Source: Alistipes sp. (GTDB lineage: Bacteria > Bacteroidota > Bacteroidia > Bacteroidales > Rikenellaceae). Taken from it: 42,413 nt of DNA. Made by a program: the position numbers and the translations under genes. Within the stretch, counting starts at the first letter, position 1. Each line of letters starts with the position of its first letter. Shown piece after piece: positions 34,977-42,413 of the stretch. The notes beneath the pieces were generated by a model. The model was not told the origin of the DNA, did no database searches, and worked only from the letters and a program-made list of their open reading frames with translations. The stretch lies in the NCBI GenBank assembly GCA_017483225.1, contig JAFULF010000031.1, positions 1-42,413 on the forward strand. The letters are read 5' to 3'.

Positions 34977-35024
34977 TTTAAGTATTTATACTTAAACAAC
35001 ATCCGCCACATCAGGGTATCTTTG
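34977..35024 (+). promoter_or_regulatory. Hdr-like operon promoter with upstream palindrome
   Basis: TATCTTTG (35017-35024) is a perfect -7 element. The -33 position has no TTTG. In its place lies a 9-2-9 palindrome, TTTAAGTAT / ATACTTAAA (34977-34985 and 34988-34996), centred about 40-45 bp before the predicted transcript start. That spacing suits an activator that touches RNA polymerase directly, as CRP/FNR-type proteins do. The leader to the first start codon is only about 16 nt. Confidence 0.6.
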
Positions 35025-35046: not shown

Positions 35047-35742
35047 ATGGCAAAGTATTTCGATATGTTGATGGAGGATGTCCGTATGCGTGAGGGGCTG
35101 AAAGCCTGTATGAACTGCGGCGTCTGCACGGCTATTTGTCCTGCGGCAGAGTTCTACGACTACGACCCTCGCCAGATTGTGGAGACGGTGCAGAGTCGTG
35201 ACGACGAGCGCATCGAGGAGCTGCTGCGCAGCGATACGATATGGTACTGCGGGCAGTGTATGTCGTGCCGCCCCCGCTGTCCTCGTGGCAACACCCCGGG
35301 GTATATCATCCAGTGTCTGCGACTACTCTCGCAGCGTCTCGGCTTCTTTGTCGAGAGCGAGAAGGGGCGACAGCAGCTCGCCATCAAGCGCACCATCGGC
35401 GAGAACATCTTGCGCACGGGCTACTGCCTTGTGCCACGCAAGATTCTGCCGGAGATGCACCCCGAGCAGGGGCCCGTATGGCGGTGGGTCTTCAACAACG
35501 ACCGAGATGTCTATGCCCTCTTCACCCCGACGTATCGTCAGGAGGGTGCAGGCCCCGTGCGCAAGATTGACGAGCAGACGCTCGAAGAGATACACCGAAT
35601 ATTCGAGGTGAGCGGCGGCAAGGAGTTGTTCGACTGCATAGAGCACTACTCCGACCAAAAGGCGTGCGAGATGGGCTACGGAGGTGCCACACGAGAGTAT
35701 ATGATGGATACATTTACAAAAAATAGTGCGGAGGAGTTGTGA
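35047..35742 (+). CDS. HdrC-like ferredoxin-type subunit (first copy)
   Basis: The product has 231 residues. Two 4Fe-4S motifs are present: Cys21, Cys24, Cys27, Cys31 (CMNCGVCTAICP) and Cys68, Cys71, Cys74, Cys78 (CGQCMSCRPRCP). They are followed by a helical C-terminal half of about 150 residues, longer than classic HdrC. There is no signal peptide. It would pass electrons between the flavoprotein and the HdrB-like partner. It is the first gene of the operon and overlaps the next by 1 bp at TGATG. Confidence 0.85.
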   Translation: MAKYFDMLMEDVRMREGLKACMNCGVCTAICPAAEFYDYDPRQIVETVQSRDDERIEELLRSDTIWYCGQCMSCRPRCPRGNTPGYIIQCLRLLSQRLGFFVESEKGRQQLAIKRTIGENILRTGYCLVPRKILPEMHPEQGPVWRWVFNNDRDVYALFTPTYRQEGAGPVRKIDEQTLEEIHRIFEVSGGKELFDCIEHYSDQKACEMGYGGATREYMMDTFTKNSAEEL

Positions 35743-36827
35743 TGAAGAGATCTAATTGGGAGGAGTACCAGAAGTCCATTGCCGACGACAAATACTATTA
35801 TGCACGCAGTTGCATACGCCAGAACTTTTTCCCCGGCAGCGAGAAGGCTTTTCTCGACATTATGCAGAGGGATTTGGGCAAGGAGGTCTTCGACGACCCG
35901 CTGCACACCTCCTGCACGGGCATAGGCTACCACTCGGACATCGTGCCATTGGAGACCATAATGACGGTCGTGGCTCGTCAGTTTGCGCTGATGAATGAGG
36001 CGGGATACGAGAACTTCATCTCCTCGTGCATCACCTCCTTCGGCATATATACGGAGCTGCTCTCGACGTGGGAGGAGTTCCCGGAGACGGAGGAGCGCAC
36101 ACGGGAGAACCTATACAAGGCGACGGGTCGAGAGTTTGTCAAGCCGAAGAATCTGGCGCACACCTCCGACATAATGTTCCACCATCGCCACGCCATCGCC
36201 GAGCGTATGACCCGCCCGCTGATAAATGTCAATACGGGCGAGCCTCTGCGGGTTGTGGAGCATATCGGATGCCACTACGCCAAGATATTCCCGAAGAAGG
36301 GTATCGGCGGCTCGGAGTTCCCATACGTGCTGGCAGGTATGATTGAGGCGTGGGGAGGCGAGGTTGTCGATTATCCGGAGCGTCGCCACTGCTGCGGCTT
36401 CGGCTTCCGCAACTACCTCGTGCAGGCGAACAGAGGCTACTCGGTGGCAAACTCGCAGAAGAAGTTGGAGAGTATGGCCCCCTACAAGCCCGACTTTATC
36501 GTCTGCAACTGCCCGGGATGCGCTATGTTCCTCGACAAGTGGCAATACACCGTTGCCGAGATGGAGGGTATAACGTATGGTCGGGGTGGCCGTGGGATTC
36601 CGGTGCTGACCTACGAGGAGATGGCCGGCCTGGTGCTGGGCTATGACCCGTGGAAGCTGGGTATGCAGATGCATCAGGTGGATGTCGAGCCTCTGCTGGA
36701 CAAGATGGGCGTGGAGTACGACCCGTCGGCGAAGTATCTGGGCCCTAACGGCAAATATATCGGCAAGCCTGAGCCTGCCATCGTAAATCATCGCTCACAA
36801 AGAAACCTATACAGCATCAAACTATGA
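35742..36827 (+). CDS. HdrB-like subunit with CCG domains
   Basis: The product has 361 residues from the ATG at 35742; a GTG one codon earlier is possible. The C-terminal CCG domain is intact: Cys177, Cys217-Cys218 (RHCCGFGF), Cys255/257 and Cys260 (VCNCPGC). In methanogen HdrB such cysteines hold non-cubane 4Fe-4S clusters that reduce a disulfide. The N-terminal CCG half is degenerate: Cys24, a single Cys58 where CC is expected (HTSCTGIG), and Cys96 without the partner Cys of CxxC. Thus probably only one catalytic cluster remains. A C-terminal extension of about 100 residues is present. It overlaps the HdrA-like gene by 4 bp. Confidence 0.82.
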   Translation: MKRSNWEEYQKSIADDKYYYARSCIRQNFFPGSEKAFLDIMQRDLGKEVFDDPLHTSCTGIGYHSDIVPLETIMTVVARQFALMNEAGYENFISSCITSFGIYTELLSTWEEFPETEERTRENLYKATGREFVKPKNLAHTSDIMFHHRHAIAERMTRPLINVNTGEPLRVVEHIGCHYAKIFPKKGIGGSEFPYVLAGMIEAWGGEVVDYPERRHCCGFGFRNYLVQANRGYSVANSQKKLESMAPYKPDFIVCNCPGCAMFLDKWQYTVAEMEGITYGRGGRGIPVLTYEEMAGLVLGYDPWKLGMQMHQVDVEPLLDKMGVEYDPSAKYLGPNGKYIGKPEPAIVNHRSQRNLYSIKL

Positions 36828-37846
36828 CAGAGAAACGAGTAGCAATAATCGGGGGCGGTGTCGCCGGTATGCAGATGGCGATACATCTCAAAGAGCGAGG
36901 CGCCAACCCCGTAATCATAGAGAGGGAGCCTACTCTGGGAGGCAAGGTTGCGGGATGGTATGTTCTCTTCCCGACCTTCACGCCTGCCGAGCAGGTTGTC
37001 GCTCCACTGAAACAGCGCATTGCCGAGCTTGGCATTGAGGTTATGTTGGACACCACGGTCACCGCCATTGCGCCGACCTGTGTCACGTTGCAACACGGGC
37101 AGCTGCTCCGTTGCGATGCTGTGGCATTGTGTAGCGGCTCGACCCTCTTCGATGCACGCATCAAGGAGGAGTACGGCTATGGCATCTACGACAACGTATA
37201 TACCTCGGCGGACTTGGAGCAGATGATGCGGGAGGGCGAGGTACGTATGGCCAACGGCGAGCGTCCTGAGCGCATAGCGATACTGCACTGCGTGGGCTCT
37301 CGTGACGAGAAGGTGTGCCAGCGCCACTGCTCGAAGGTGTGCTGCGTCACGGGTGTTAAGCAGGCGATAGAGTTGAAGCGTATGATGCCGCAGGCGGAGG
37401 TCTTCAACTTCTATATGGATATACGTATGTTCGGCCCGGGCTACGAGGAGATGTACCGTGAGGCGCAAGTCGCCCACAACGTACACTTCGTGCGTGGTCG
37501 AATCTCGGAGGCCTCACCGCTCTCCGAGGGGCGACTGCAAATCAAGGCGGAGGATACGCTGACGGGGCGCCCACTGCGAATGTCGGTCGATATGCTGGTG
37601 CTGCTTATCGGTATGCGTGGCAACGACGACAACCTTCCGCTGGCAACCTCGGCGGGTATCACTCTGGCAGAGAATGGATTCTTCCACCCACGCAACCACT
37701 TCCTCGACAACGTCGAGAGCGAGCGTAAGGGTATCTTTATGGCAGGCACCTGCTCCTCGCCAAAGAGCATCGGCGAGACGCTCTGCGAGGCGACTACGGC
37801 CGCCGAGCGCATAATCAACTATCTGAATCGTAGCAACAAGGCATAG
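36824..37846 (+). CDS. HdrA-like FAD/Fe-S subunit, short form
   Basis: The product has 340 residues. It begins with a dinucleotide-binding motif AIIGGGVAGMQMA (GGG at 10-12). A cysteine cluster typical of HdrA follows, CVGSRDEKVCQRHCSKVCC, with Cys156, Cys165, Cys169, Cys173 and Cys174. A second nucleotide-fold segment ends in GIFMAGTCSSPKSIGETLCEA. The N-terminal and C-terminal ferredoxin domains of methanogen HdrA are missing, as in the short HdrA/QmoA-type proteins of sulfur bacteria. It should bind FAD and one 4Fe-4S cluster in the cytoplasm. It overlaps the upstream HdrB-like gene (ATGA), so the subunits are translationally coupled. Confidence 0.85.
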   Translation: MTEKRVAIIGGGVAGMQMAIHLKERGANPVIIEREPTLGGKVAGWYVLFPTFTPAEQVVAPLKQRIAELGIEVMLDTTVTAIAPTCVTLQHGQLLRCDAVALCSGSTLFDARIKEEYGYGIYDNVYTSADLEQMMREGEVRMANGERPERIAILHCVGSRDEKVCQRHCSKVCCVTGVKQAIELKRMMPQAEVFNFYMDIRMFGPGYEEMYREAQVAHNVHFVRGRISEASPLSEGRLQIKAEDTLTGRPLRMSVDMLVLLIGMRGNDDNLPLATSAGITLAENGFFHPRNHFLDNVESERKGIFMAGTCSSPKSIGETLCEATTAAERIINYLNRSNKA

Positions 37847-37857
37847 GAGGAGGCGAT

Positions 37858-38190
37858 ATGGCATCAAACTTCGGCTTTTCAATATCCAAACCCCGTGTCA
37901 TAGACATCGACCGCAACAATCTGCGCAAGAGCAACGAGATTCTGCGGGAGATGCCCGAGTTGCAGAGTTGCATAGGATGCGGCTCCTGCACGGCGAGTTG
38001 CACGGCGGGCAACCTCACCTCGTACAACTTCCGCAAGGTGCATACCCTTGTGCGCCGAGGCGAGTACGTCGGTGCATACGAGGAGATGAACAAGTGTATG
38101 CTCTGTGGTAAGTGCCGTCTGGTATGCCCCAGAGGCATCAACACCCGCAAGGTCGCAATGCTCATCAAACGTAAATTAGGAGATTTTTAG
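37858..38190 (+). CDS. HdrC-like ferredoxin-type subunit (second copy)
   Basis: The product has 110 residues with two 4Fe-4S motifs: Cys38, Cys41, Cys44, Cys48 (CIGCGSCTASC) and Cys80, Cys83, Cys86, Cys90 (CMLCGKCRLVC). An N-terminal FSISKPRVIDIDRNN segment resembles HdrC/DsrK-associated proteins. Only 2 bp separate it from the membrane subunit gene, so it is probably the electron relay between the HdrA-like core and that subunit. Confidence 0.85.
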   Translation: MASNFGFSISKPRVIDIDRNNLRKSNEILREMPELQSCIGCGSCTASCTAGNLTSYNFRKVHTLVRRGEYVGAYEEMNKCMLCGKCRLVCPRGINTRKVAMLIKRKLGDF

Positions 38191-38192
38191 GG

Positions 38193-39977
38193 ATGAGTTT
38201 CTACGCACACTTTACACTGCCCTTCATCATCGGGGCTCTGGCGATGTTCGCAATCATCGCCTACCGCTACACGTCGTGGATTGTGCAGCTGCCTCGCCGA
38301 GATAAGGCACTCCTGCGCAAGGGGATACTCTCCTTTGCAACGATACGGTCGGTATGGGAGGTCATCTGCGAGTCGCTCCTGCACGTGAAGATATGGCGAC
38401 GAGACCCTCGCCTCGGATATATGCATATGAGCCTCGCCTTCGGCTGGTTCCTGCTCATCGCCGTAGGCTCGGTCGAGAGCCTGCTCTACACCGGCACACT
38501 GCTGGTGCCGTTGCAGGGCCACGTCTTTTTCAGATACTTCGCCACCGCCATCGACAAGCATATCCCACTGATGGACAACATTATGGATGGGCTGCTACTC
38601 TTCGTGCTCTCGGGCGTGGCTCTGGCGTGGTTCAAGCGTCTGCGCTCTCGTGCGCTCGGTATGCGCCGCACCACCCGCCACACCATAGGCGACCGTCTGG
38701 CACTCTCGACGCTATGGTTTATCTTCCCGGCACGCCTTGTCGCCGAGTCGGTCACCGCTGCCATATATGGTGGTGGCGGATTCCTCACGGGAAGCCTCGG
38801 GGCACTGCTAGGCGAGGTGGTCCCTGCGAGCGTGTTGCAGGCACTGTTTGAGCCTGTATGGTGGTTCTACTCCTCCGTGCTCGGCATCTTCTTCGTGGCA
38901 ATGCCCTTCTCCCGTTATATGCACATATTCACGGAGATACCGCTCATATTCCTGCGTAATTACCGCCTGAGCGTGGGCGACAAGCGCACCTCATACGACA
39001 ACTTCCAAGTGCAGGCGTGCTCCCGCTGCGGCATCTGCATCGACCCGTGCCAATTGCAGGCCGAGCTCGGTTTGAACGACGTGCAGTCGGTATATTTCCT
39101 GCGTGACCGCCGTGAGCATCAACTGACCCTGAACACCGCAGCCACCTGCCTTATGTGCGGTCGCTGCTCCACCGCCTGCCCCGTAGGCATAGACCTCAAC
39201 GCATTGAGGCTCAACTCACGTGTCGAGATGCGCAACACCCCGAGCGAGAAGCGTTTCGTCTATCTGCGGGGTCTTGACCGCTCGGAGGGTATGGGCAAGG
39301 TGGGCTACTTCGCAGGATGTATGACGATGCTGACCCCTCGCACCCTCTCCGCTATGCAGAGCATCTTTGAGGCGGCAGACGAGCAGGTGTGGTGGGCAGA
39401 CAAGAGCGGAGGCGTATGCTGTGGCCGACCACTGAAACTCTCCGGCGAGAGAGATTCGGCACACAAAATGGTAGCGTACAACACGGAGCTCTTCCGTAAG
39501 CACGAGATAACGACCCTTGTGACCTCCTGTCCGATATGTCTGCGCACATTCAAGGAGGACTACAACTTGGAGGGCATCGAGGTATTGCACCACTCGGAGT
39601 ATATCGCCCGACTCATCAGCAGCGGACGACTGCGCCTGCGCAAGGGCGAGGGGGCGTTTGTCTATCACGACCCGTGCGAGTTGGGTCGTGGCTGCGGCAT
39701 ATACGACGCTCCACGAGAGGTTATCTCGGCACTGGGCACCCTCTTGGAGGCGAAGCACAACCGCCGTGATGCCCTCTGCTGTGGCTCCTCGCTTGCCAAC
39801 CTCTCGATTGGCGACCAGGCACAGCTGCGCATAGCCTCCTCGCTGACGCAGGAGCTGGAACAGTCGGGGGCCGACACGCTGGTAACCGCCTGCCCGCTCT
39901 GCAAGAAGGCTCTGGGCAGGAGTGCGAAGGTGCCGACACGTGACCTCTCGGAGATTGTTGCCGAAAACATCGTTTAA
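38193..39977 (+). CDS. Membrane HdrE/HdrD-like fusion (NarI-like domain plus Fe-S and two CCG domains)
   Basis: The product has 594 residues. The first about 255 form a hydrophobic NarI/DsrM-like domain with about five membrane segments and several His (6, about 64, 77, 242) that could hold b-type heme. Two 4Fe-4S motifs follow at Cys276/279/282/286 and Cys319/322/325/329. Two complete CCG domains end the chain: Cys376, Cys409-410, Cys446/449 and Cys495, Cys529-530, Cys567/570. This is an HdrED or DsrMK-like chain made as one protein. It should exchange electrons between the quinone pool and a thiol/disulfide or Fe-S partner at the cytoplasmic face. Heme ligation is inferred, not shown. Confidence 0.85.
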   Translation: MSFYAHFTLPFIIGALAMFAIIAYRYTSWIVQLPRRDKALLRKGILSFATIRSVWEVICESLLHVKIWRRDPRLGYMHMSLAFGWFLLIAVGSVESLLYTGTLLVPLQGHVFFRYFATAIDKHIPLMDNIMDGLLLFVLSGVALAWFKRLRSRALGMRRTTRHTIGDRLALSTLWFIFPARLVAESVTAAIYGGGGFLTGSLGALLGEVVPASVLQALFEPVWWFYSSVLGIFFVAMPFSRYMHIFTEIPLIFLRNYRLSVGDKRTSYDNFQVQACSRCGICIDPCQLQAELGLNDVQSVYFLRDRREHQLTLNTAATCLMCGRCSTACPVGIDLNALRLNSRVEMRNTPSEKRFVYLRGLDRSEGMGKVGYFAGCMTMLTPRTLSAMQSIFEAADEQVWWADKSGGVCCGRPLKLSGERDSAHKMVAYNTELFRKHEITTLVTSCPICLRTFKEDYNLEGIEVLHHSEYIARLISSGRLRLRKGEGAFVYHDPCELGRGCGIYDAPREVISALGTLLEAKHNRRDALCCGSSLANLSIGDQAQLRIASSLTQELEQSGADTLVTACPLCKKALGRSAKVPTRDLSEIVAENIV

Positions 39978-39998
39978 CAACCTAAAAACTATACGATT

Positions 39999-40625
39999 AT
40001 GAAACAGATTCTGATTACCGTGCTACTCTGCGCAACCGCCCTTGTGGGGCTGCGCTGGGGCTTGGAGAGCAAGCAGGAGAGCGGAGCCATCGAGACGATA
40101 ATGAGCCGTCGCAGCATCCGTGCCTACAAGGAGATTCCCGTAGAGCGTGAGAAGCTCGACCAGATTGCGCTCTGCGGCATCGCAGCGCCCAACGCAATGA
40201 ACAAGCAGGCGTGGGCCGTGCGCATCGTGGACTCCAAGGAGTGGATTGACAACTGCACCGCCGCCTTCCTCCCAACTATCGAGGGCACGCCGTGGGCCGA
40301 GCGACTCCTCACGCCCGACTTCCGCAATATGTTCCGCAACGCTGCGGCAGTGATATTCGTGGCCGCCGAGTCGGGCACATACGCCGGCGTTGATTGTGGC
40401 CTTATGGGCGAGAATATGATGCTCGCAGCCCACGAACTCGGCCTCGGCACCTGCTGCCTTGGCTCGCCCGTGCCATTCCTTAACTCGGAGCAGGGTGCTC
40501 CATTCCTCGCATCACTCAACCTGCCCGAGGGCTACGCCTTGCAGTACGCCATAGCGGTAGGCTACCCCGACCAAGAGCCGGAGGCAAAACCTCGCAATGC
40601 AGAGGTTATCGAGTATGTAGAGTAG
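39999..40625 (+). CDS. Nitroreductase-family protein with N-terminal membrane anchor
   Basis: The product has 208 residues. Residues 1-22 (MKQILITVLLCATALVGLRWG) are a hydrophobic segment without a clear cleavage site or lipobox, so the protein is probably membrane-tethered or exported. The rest is a nitroreductase domain: MSRRSIRAYKEIPVE (FMN-phosphate-binding start), APNAMNKQAWAVRIVD, and a C-terminal GYPDQEPEAKPR. FMN-dependent NAD(P)H oxidoreductases of this fold act on nitro compounds, flavins or quinones. It follows the Hdr-like membrane gene by 21 bp and closes the operon, so it may be a partner oxidoreductase. Topology decides whether it could use NADH. Confidence 0.82.
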   Translation: MKQILITVLLCATALVGLRWGLESKQESGAIETIMSRRSIRAYKEIPVEREKLDQIALCGIAAPNAMNKQAWAVRIVDSKEWIDNCTAAFLPTIEGTPWAERLLTPDFRNMFRNAAAVIFVAAESGTYAGVDCGLMGENMMLAAHELGLGTCCLGSPVPFLNSEQGAPFLASLNLPEGYALQYAIAVGYPDQEPEAKPRNAEVIEYVE

Positions 40626-41296: not shown

Positions 41297-41947
41297 TTAT
41301 TCTGCCCTTACAACGCCTACTACAAGGGCTATCGAATGCACCTTGTTTAATGGCAGTTCAAACGGTGCATAATCGGTATTTTCAGATACCAAAGTGATAT
41401 GCTCAGCATCGCTACCCTGACGCACTCGTTTAAGGATAACACCCTGCTCGCTGCCAATCACATATACCCTGTTCCACTGAAAAAAAGTATCTATCGGGAG
41501 GCGTTTGCACGCCACGATGTCGCCACTATAATACTTTGGCTGCATTGAGTCACCCGACACGCGGATCAAGAACTCCGCACCCTTGAATGTCGGCACATCG
41601 AAATACTCACAATCATAGTCCATTACCTGCATATCGTTGCCCGACAGCACTCCTGCCACAGCCTCAACAGGCAAGAGGGGTATTCCACCCTGCGATGCAG
41701 GAGTTATGCTCGGTGAGTTTGTTATGTCGCCGTGCCCCATAATGAGCCAATCGGCACTAACATTGAAAGCCGTTACAATGTTCTGTATTGTTGCTATACC
41801 TACATTGCTGCGACCTTTGCAAATCTCGGTCATCATAGACGCACTAATGCCGATTTTCTCCGCAAAGTCCTTTTTTCCAGCCACTTTGCCCTCTTTTGCC
41901 AAATAATCATAAACCTCTATAAATCGGTTTGTTACATCGTTTGCCAT
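41297..41947 (-). CDS. Phage-type repressor, HTH plus S24 (LexA-like) peptidase
   Basis: The product has 216 residues. A helix-turn-helix domain (about 8-68; KKDFAEKIGISASMMTEICKGRSNVGIATIQNIV) joins an S24 domain with a likely autocleavage bond Ala98-Gly99 (EAVAGVL), catalytic Ser134 (SGDSMQPKYYSGD) and Lys173 (VILKRVRQG). It would bind the operators at about 41958-42040, hold the prophage silent and cleave itself when RecA is activated by DNA damage. It is divergent from the early genes, the classic lysogeny-switch layout. Confidence 0.92.
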   Translation of the reverse strand: MANDVTNRFIEVYDYLAKEGKVAGKKDFAEKIGISASMMTEICKGRSNVGIATIQNIVTAFNVSADWLIMGHGDITNSPSITPASQGGIPLLPVEAVAGVLSGNDMQVMDYDCEYFDVPTFKGAEFLIRVSGDSMQPKYYSGDIVACKRLPIDTFFQWNRVYVIGSEQGVILKRVRQGSDAEHITLVSENTDYAPFELPLNKVHSIALVVGVVRAE

Positions 41948-41957
41948 ATATTAAAAA

Positions 41958-42040
41958 TACAGAACATTGAAATTTTATCCTCAAAAAATTTGCAAATAAT
42001 ACAGAATTCTGTAACTTTGCATCGTGTTTCAAATTGAAAC
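41958..42040 (+). promoter_or_regulatory. Prophage early promoter with palindromic operators
   Basis: TTTG (41989-41992), 19 bp, TAACTTTG (42012-42019) form a full promoter facing the early genes. The perfect palindrome TACAGAATTCTGTA (42000-42013) lies between its two elements and touches the -7 box. A half site TACAGAAC is at 41958-41965, on the repressor side. A second perfect palindrome, GTTTCAA-A-TTGAAAC (42026-42040), sits at the predicted transcript start. One set probably binds the S24 repressor and the other the small early regulator. Confidence 0.7.
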
Positions 42041-42074
42041 CTGCGGGACAAATATAATAAAAATAATTGAGACG

Positions 42075-42248
42075 ATGGCAAAAGTAGTAACACAACACGG
42101 TGAGCGAGGGGAACTCGGCAGGATATTCAAGGTCTCCCAAGTAACAATTCGCCGAGCGTTGAATGGTGAGACCAACACGCCCCTCGCAAAGAAGATCCGC
42201 ACGGCAGCAATTAAGCGTGGCGGAGTAGTAATGGTAGTAAAACAATAA
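42075..42248 (+). CDS. Small Cro/Ner-like DNA-binding protein
   Basis: The product has 57 residues from the ATG at 42075 (MAKVVTQHGERGELGRIF); an ATG 17 codons upstream overlaps the operator region and is rejected. A helix-turn-helix core, LGRIFKVSQVTIRRALNGETNTPLA, spans about residues 14-38, followed by a basic helix and a short beta tail (GGVVMVVKQ). Its place as first early gene opposite the repressor suggests a Cro or Ner role, repressing the repressor or early promoter. The family name is not recognised beyond the HTH. Confidence 0.7.
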   Translation: MAKVVTQHGERGELGRIFKVSQVTIRRALNGETNTPLAKKIRTAAIKRGGVVMVVKQ

Positions 42249-42267
42249 CTAAATAAGTCGCAGAACA

Positions 42268-42413
42268 ATGAGAACTTACACAACAGACCAAAAACTCGGA
42301 CGCTTGACGGCGTACCTTGTAGCAGTGATGAAGCCTTTTGTCTTTGATGGCAACGAGGTAGAGTTTACCGCAACAGAGAATTTTATGCAGCGTATGGTGG
42401 AGGAAGATCCAGC
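42268..42413 (+). CDS. Unknown early prophage gene, truncated by right edge
   Basis: The ATG at 42268 opens a frame of 48 codons that stays open to the edge (MRTYTTDQKLGRLTAYLVAV..., then FDGNEVEFTATENFM). It starts 19 bp after the Cro/Ner-like gene, so it is probably in the same early transcript. No domain is recognised; it is not visibly a transposase start. Confidence 0.6.
   Translation, partial: MRTYTTDQKLGRLTAYLVAVMKPFVFDGNEVEFTATENFMQRMVEEDP

Follow-up and report, generated by a model that had tools for sequence, protein, structure and literature searches.

What is a run of heterodisulfide reductase (Hdr)-like genes doing in a member of the Bacteroidales, usually modelled as succinate/acetate fermenters, when HdrABC-type parts are best known from methanogens and sulfur oxidizers? 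The question is raised by contig JAFULF010000031.1 of the Alistipes sp. assembly GCA_017483225.1 (1.86 Mb in 42 contigs; genome G000 below), whose forward strand from position 1 to 42,413 is the window analyzed here. Five of its genes, spanning 35047-39977 and encoding HdrC1-, HdrB-, HdrA- and HdrC2-like proteins followed by a membrane HdrE-HdrD fusion (ED), make up an operon that is an order-wide Bacteroidales module and a new variant among Hdr/sHdr-type systems, sHdr being the Hdr-like system of sulfur oxidizers. We predict, with confidence that stops at an even chance, that the operon encodes a menaquinone-linked thiol/disulfide oxidoreductase. Among the titles and abstract openings given by mostly capped searches of open-access papers, none describes it; a description may exist in subscription papers.

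The window contains six same-strand open reading frames between 35047 and 40625, separated by successive gaps of -4, -4, +11, +2 and +21 bp and assigned by Pfam and NCBIfam, in order, to HdrC, HdrB, HdrA, HdrC, Fer4+CCG+CCG and nitroreductase. These positions and assignments confirm the preliminary description of the locus as six Hdr-like and associated genes spaced by 21 bp or less. The features are as follows:

35017..35024, + strand: -7 promoter box TATCTTTG (Bacteroidetes-type TAnnTTTG), 30 bp before HdrC1
35047..35742, + strand: HdrC1-like, 231 aa, two Cys4 (ferredoxin-type) motifs
35739..36827, + strand: HdrB-like, 362 aa, CCG motif 1 degenerate, CCG motif 2 complete
36824..37846, + strand: short HdrA, 340 aa, FAD glycine motif, C156/C169/C173/C174, E132, K179
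37858..38190, + strand: HdrC2-like, 110 aa, two Cys4 motifs
38193..39977, + strand: ED (membrane HdrE-HdrD fusion), 594 aa, two Cys4 and two complete CCG motifs
39999..40625, + strand: nitroreductase family, 208 aa, accessory passenger outside the conserved system

Ferredoxin-type Cys4 motifs thus number six in total, two each in HdrC1, HdrC2 and ED, and the membrane component is one HdrE-HdrD fusion chain, not separate proteins. The NCBIfam equivalog cut-offs for Hdr were missed by wide margins (HdrA 239.6 of 1100 bits, HdrB 127.3 of 450, HdrC 94.2 of 350), so that by annotation standards these proteins are Hdr homologues, not CoM-CoB enzymes.

The five genes are kept together well beyond this contig. 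Among the named loci, which are the best 80 of 588 relatives and overlap in part with the numbered genomes (L031/L112, L032/L091 and L033/L056 are pairs of the same contig, judged by length), the order C1-B-A-C2-ED is intact in 77, and the remaining three (L092, L099, L126) are cut off by a contig end. A chance arrangement is therefore excluded. The same order, which the preliminary description had proposed to trace as a synteny block, was found in strict form in 64 of 78 numbered genomes with fetched loci, nearly all of them outside the host genus. Two others (G060, G295) have the five-gene order with a related piece upstream, two (G114, G332) are rearranged to C1-C2-ED-B-A, and two are cut by contig ends; three, all of one genus, show B-A alone in the fetched stretch, and five (G113, G122, G302, G324, G330) show only a C1-B pair in theirs. 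In the latter group a core HdrA lies elsewhere in G113, G122 and G330, and a second HdrB elsewhere in G324. The sixth gene does not share this conservation: 60 named loci extend 1 kb or more beyond ED, and in only 4 of these, besides the window, does a nitroreductase follow it. The six-gene operon originally described thus stands as a five-gene one, and the nitroreductase is ruled out as a sixth subunit.

Promoter-like boxes agree with the gene order. Of the 77 named loci scored, 75 have the sequence TAnnTTTG, which we take to be the Bacteroidetes-type -7 promoter motif, within 150 bp upstream of HdrC1, where shuffled sequences predict 7%, and 65 of these 75 boxes sit 24-66 bp before the gene. 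No such box was found before HdrA (0/64) or before ED (0/77) in the named loci. Together these counts are good evidence that the five genes would be transcribed as one unit. Further upstream of HdrC1, a 20-bp inverted repeat, TTTAAGTATTTATACTTAAA, lies at 34977-34996; it was not among the best inverted repeats given for eight relatives.

Nor is the locus a singular case. An HdrB profile matched 104 of 295 Bacteroidales genomes, in 71 of 178 genera, a count that includes a C1-B paralogue described below, with scores of 562-717 bits save for one 224-bit fragment; about a third of the sampled Bacteroidales genomes thus carry a family to which the literature found assigns no function. In a 345-genome sample of the phylum, the 11 HdrB matches were G000 itself and ten weak ones (74-148 bits). 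Within this phylum, as represented by the two samples, the five-gene module looks specific to the Bacteroidales. Among the best 80 of 588 relatives by HdrB, the nearest named ones belong to Alistipes and other Rikenellaceae, and named members occur in Alistipes, Tidjanibacter, Odoribacter and Butyricimonas; the carriers include environmental as well as gut Bacteroidales. Of the 37 Alistipes genomes, G000 included, 26 have HdrA, as do 39 of 61 relatives at E <= 1e-20, some of the latter with other HdrA forms.

What chemistry might such a module carry out? The N-terminal part of ED is hydrophobic and has conserved histidines at H64 (92 of 95 rows), H78 (92/95) and H244 (93/95). Its soluble part has two CCG (noncubane-cluster) motifs (C376, C409, C410, C446, C449 and C495, C529, C530, C567, C570); all ten cysteines are present in 93 of 95 rows, and the remaining two rows are incomplete in this region. 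HdrDE is the membrane-bound, methanophenazine-linked heterodisulfide reductase, which acts on CoM-S-S-CoB; ED resembles it in its cytochrome-b-like membrane part, two Cys4 motifs and two complete CCG motifs, a likeness of motifs (93 of 95 rows, 2 partial) in which the heme is predicted only. ED differs in being a single fused chain, in being bacterial and in being accompanied by an HdrCBA-C2 arm; the comparison of the two is one of motifs. A membrane part and an HdrD-like soluble part on one chain are also found in EMO and mycobacterial EtfD, the electron-transfer flavoprotein (ETF):menaquinone oxidoreductases. With EMO, ED shares the full layout of membrane part, two Cys4 and two CCG motifs, and a search of the PDB with the ED sequence by itself matched mycobacterial EtfD (9ojn) only. 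This would suit a relay in which HdrCBA-C2 receives electrons from a dehydrogenase or flavoprotein and ED hands them on to menaquinone, no disulfide being made or cleaved. The cysteines argue otherwise: two EMO and two sHdrB3 sequences from type II sHdr clusters lack six of the ten that ED retains, and PMC13083937, which also describes HdrDE, presents EtfD as a shielded relay with Thr539 and a His583 that acts as a cap; ED has C410 and I448 at these positions. CCG motif 1 is thus intact in ED, whereas the two EMO rows no longer have it and EtfD has an altered form. Nor are there ETF genes in the Bacteroidales operon or a recurrent dehydrogenase or ETF neighbor beside it, and we regard the relay as quite improbable. 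The intact cysteines of ED against the stripped ones of EMO and sHdrB3 are the sharpest contrast found and offer a direct handle on the role of the noncubane site; ED has the look of a functional disulfide site and not of an ETF relay.

HdrB presents a different picture. Its PDB sequence matches are methanogen HdrB, and its CCG motif 2 is complete (C178, C218, C219, C258, C261) and invariant in 14 of 14 rows. CCG motif 1 has only C25, C59 and C97, two of the five cysteines being missing. The structure-match alignment places C59 on methanogen Cys42 and S58 on Cys41; by register with CCG motif 2, T60 replaces the second cysteine of the pair; in either alignment one cysteine of the CC pair is absent. 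S100 aligns with Cys81 of methanogen HdrB, which, according to PMC13083937, is with Cys234 a bridging cysteine displaced by substrate. The pattern C25, C59, C97, S100 recurs in sHdrB1 of G339 and G421, two genomes with sHdr-like clusters, whereas C258, kept in the Bacteroidales HdrB, is lost in these two proteins.

HdrA was strictly conserved at its FAD glycines and at C156, C169, C173 and C174, its one Cys4 cluster motif, in all 97 rows (95 distinct sequences). In the same rows E132 is present in 97 and K179 in 96, aligning with E356 and K409 of methanogen HdrA, which PMC12054007 reports as proposed marks of a bifurcating HdrA. This raises the possibility that the HdrA FAD bifurcates or confurcates electrons between a high-potential path through C2, ED and menaquinone and a low-potential or thiol path through C1-B. 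In type I sHdrA an N stands in place of the lysine, yet two type II sHdrA, from a sulfur-oxidizer system, have the same residues as the Bacteroidales protein, and the pair is therefore not diagnostic. Moreover, Pfam and NCBIfam detected no ferredoxin or MvhD domain in HdrA, and no gene for a low-potential partner recurs beside the operon. Bifurcation of this kind is unlikely in our estimation, if worth keeping in view. The soluble HdrABC of methanogens has homologous HdrA, HdrB and HdrC; unlike it, the Bacteroidales system has an HdrA without the N-terminal and ferredoxin domains, an HdrB whose degenerate CCG motif 1 leaves it short of two complete noncubane motifs, and an operon devoid of a hydrogenase or MvhD gene.

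The relationship of HdrA to other families was examined in a maximum-likelihood tree of the conserved region with 55 rows (33 of the 97 core sequences, 16 long HdrA, 3 methanogen HdrA and 3 sHdrA), in which no row is labelled QmoA by name and other phyla are hardly sampled. The 33 Bacteroidales rows form one clade (100/99) and the three sHdrA rows their own (100/98), and these two clades jointly stand apart from the long and methanogen HdrA (96/95). The Bacteroidales HdrA is sister to, not inside, the sHdrA of sulfur oxidizers, and placement inside a characterized family was not seen on this tree. QmoABC combines two HdrA-like subunits with QmoC, and has HdrA-like and HdrC-like parts with a membrane partner, as does the Bacteroidales system; unlike QmoABC, the latter has one HdrA locus in G000 and includes HdrB, and the qmoC model scored 39.5 of 300 bits. 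DsrMK, whose partners are DsrC and DsrAB, is likewise distinct as judged by score, with the DsrK equivalog at 64.4 of 400 bits.

The gene order does recall sHdr, as noted at the outset, and HdrA is sister to sHdrA; sHdr is among the closest known systems. The syntenic core of type I is shdrC1B1AHC2B2 and type II is a syntenic shdrC1B1AHB3 with etfAB (PMC11582611), and sHdr is associated with the lipoate-binding protein LbpA (PMC6067878). The Bacteroidales operon shares the C1-B-A order, a short FAD-binding HdrA, the sister HdrA clade (as judged against three sHdrA rows) and the degenerate CCG motif 1 of HdrB. It departs from type I in having no H gene in the window's 11-bp A-C2 gap and ED instead of B2, and from type II in that C2 and ED are separate, with no B3 and no etfAB in the window. 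More generally, no shdrH, LbpA or EtfAB gene was recognized beside the operon, HdrB motif 2 is complete, and a membrane ED with two complete CCG motifs replaces B2/B3. By its HdrA tree, HdrB motif pattern and gene order, the operon thus stands beside sHdr as a sister architecture in which an HdrDE-like ED takes the position of B2 or of B3-EtfAB-EMO. Clusters resembling type II sHdr occur in another family of the same phylum (L272 1031-11971, L273 2391-11627). Those of G339 and G421 contain GcvH-like, DsrE-like, EMO-like, EtfAB-like, sHdrB3, HdrA, HdrB and HdrC genes (GcvH, DsrE, EMO and B3 confirmed by Pfam in G421 only; EtfAB named by sight) and are close to the type II definition of PMC11582611, shdrH not having been identified there.

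Such kinship invites the proposal that the operon encodes an sHdr-like sulfane-sulfur enzyme that oxidizes persulfide sulfur and delivers the electrons to menaquinone. The sister HdrA, the degenerate motif 1 shared with two sHdrB1 and the common C1-B-A start speak for this, and in G060 a cluster with TusA and long HdrA lies upstream of the operon, from which a single NA37 gene on the opposite strand separates it. In other Bacteroidales, a paralogous HdrC1-B pair that lacks A, C2 and ED (L216, L217, L220, L221, L231, L232, L313-L318, L322, L325) also points toward sulfur: its neighbors are DUF134 (named by sight) at 9 of 14 loci, NifX at 8 (6 with another query), Mrp at 7 and Cys/Met pyridoxal phosphate (PLP) enzyme genes at 3. 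An HdrB tree (FastTree) places 14 of the 15 C1-B-only rows in two groups, one of 9 (support 1.0) and one of 5 (0.96). The pair is perhaps another uncharacterized sulfur or metal-cluster redox module. Its context cannot, however, be carried over to the five-gene locus, where DUF134, NifX and Mrp fall to 0, 0 and 1 of 80. The lipoate-binding protein is missing too, as first described: across 182 sources, the only GcvH/LbpA-like gene beside the operon is a GcvH on one contig that appears under two labels (L033/L056), which we reject as LbpA since it looks ordinary and lies on the opposite strand beside a lactate/malate dehydrogenase gene; the single GCV_H match of G000 is on a different contig from the operon. 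TusA has no match in G000 and was found in 1 of 26 operon-bearing Alistipes, and no sulfur-metabolism family occurs among 22 further window proteins scanned, in line with the initial description of the surroundings. With the loss of C258 in the two sHdrB1 added, we consider an sHdr-like sulfane-sulfur enzyme distinctly unlikely; the paralogue context and the G060 cluster hint at sulfur chemistry but prove nothing about the window operon. A second Hdr cluster is present in some Bacteroidales (L278 6410-12037, L280 4338-13483, L045 312-6134), with TusA, DsrE-like, FlpD/MvhD-like, two long HdrA and HdrC-like genes (Pfam for L280 only).

Nor does the neighborhood supply a missing partner. Across 85 five-gene loci no neighbor family is recurrent: the most frequent one, named by sight as a response regulator, is found at 12 of 85 in mixed positions. 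Upstream thyA-dfrA (Pfam on L038) is a genus-level neighbor, the DHFR cluster occurring at 9 of 85 loci with 1 outside Alistipes. A PLP enzyme, an SDR and an aminotransferase beside L041, L047 and L205 were set aside, with up to 4 loci each. CoA-disulfide-reductase-like matches at 8 of 80 five-gene loci are weak (47-59 bits). Because the operon has its own promoter-like box and no recurrent neighbor, it appears to specify a complete, self-contained complex.

Among the readings considered, we favor the menaquinone-linked thiol/disulfide oxidoreductase, which is also where the preliminary description had arrived with its quinone-linked thiol/disulfide or flavin complex and which remains the best reading of a predicted function. 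The five co-encoded subunits would form a membrane-anchored Hdr-type complex in which ED works in the manner of HdrDE, splitting or making a disulfide between its pair of noncubane clusters while electrons move to or from menaquinone via heme b. HdrC2 would connect ED to HdrA, HdrCBA-C2 would serve as a flavin arm, and HdrC1-B would provide another thiol or persulfide site, built on a single cluster. In this way a thiol/disulfide pair would be coupled to the quinone pool, in either direction, with CoA, cysteine or protein disulfides or persulfides as candidate substrates. A bolder version combines sHdr-type HdrCBA, with its one noncubane site and FAD residues of the bifurcation type, with a complete HdrDE-type disulfide reductase into an order-specific, quinone-coupled respiratory complex with three noncubane sites, bifurcating or confurcating between menaquinone and two thiol/disulfide couples; this we think improbable.

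The quinone side of the menaquinone-linked reading can be compared with gene content. G000 encodes two MqnA/D-family proteins, a UbiA and a fumarate-reductase-type b subunit. Counting MenA above its cut-off and PF02621 above 75 bits, with weaker matches dropped, 26 of 26 Alistipes with the operon have a MenA or Mqn marker, versus 6 of 11 others, uncorrected for kinship. This co-occurrence supports a link between operon and quinone; it falls short of establishing one, since kinship was ignored and weaker MenA-like matches exist. In G037, whose fetched locus shows B-A only, MenA, Mqn and the b subunit gave no match, and UbiA only a 24.8-bit fragment.

Several observations weigh against the menaquinone-linked reading. 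MenA has no match in G000, and the five marker-less Alistipes are those with the weaker MenA-like matches. As UbiA-family matches occur in all 61 relatives and the b subunit in 36 of 37 Alistipes, quinone use has no discriminating power. Given how distant the EMO and sHdrB3 rows are, their alignment at CCG motif 1, on which the cysteine contrast depends, may be off, and H64, H78 and H244 of ED are putative heme ligands by analogy only. At L048, L310 and L311 (G037, G149, G232), HdrB-HdrA stand in the fetched stretch without C1, C2 and ED. Finally, substrate, activity and structure are all predictions from sequence.

Should the menaquinone-linked reading be correct, organisms presumed to live by succinate/acetate fermentation would gain a respiratory branch through a quinone-linked disulfide enzyme, which might bear on the chemistry of cysteine, H2S or CoA disulfide in the gut; were the three-site bifurcating version true, it would amount to an unrecognized anaerobic respiration on disulfides or persulfides in "fermenting" gut Bacteroidales. 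Matches to "heterodisulfide reductase" in gut metagenomes, in turn, need not signify methanogens. In PMC8862142, HdrA (K03388) is among the methane-metabolism orthologues that differ between cohort groups and Alistipes is enriched in patients, and Alistipes may thus contribute to the K03388 signal of that cohort.

The rest of the window adds minor observations. The nitroreductase (39999-40625) has a hydrophobic N-terminal segment, presumably unusual for this family, and is possibly membrane-anchored or exported. The 22 other window proteins scanned include fumarase, phosphoenolpyruvate carboxykinase, glycogen enzymes, ribosomal L25 and an S1 protein. At the end of the window (41297-42413), a repressor-like gene with a Cro/C1-type helix-turn-helix and an S24 peptidase begins what looks like a prophage or other mobile element.

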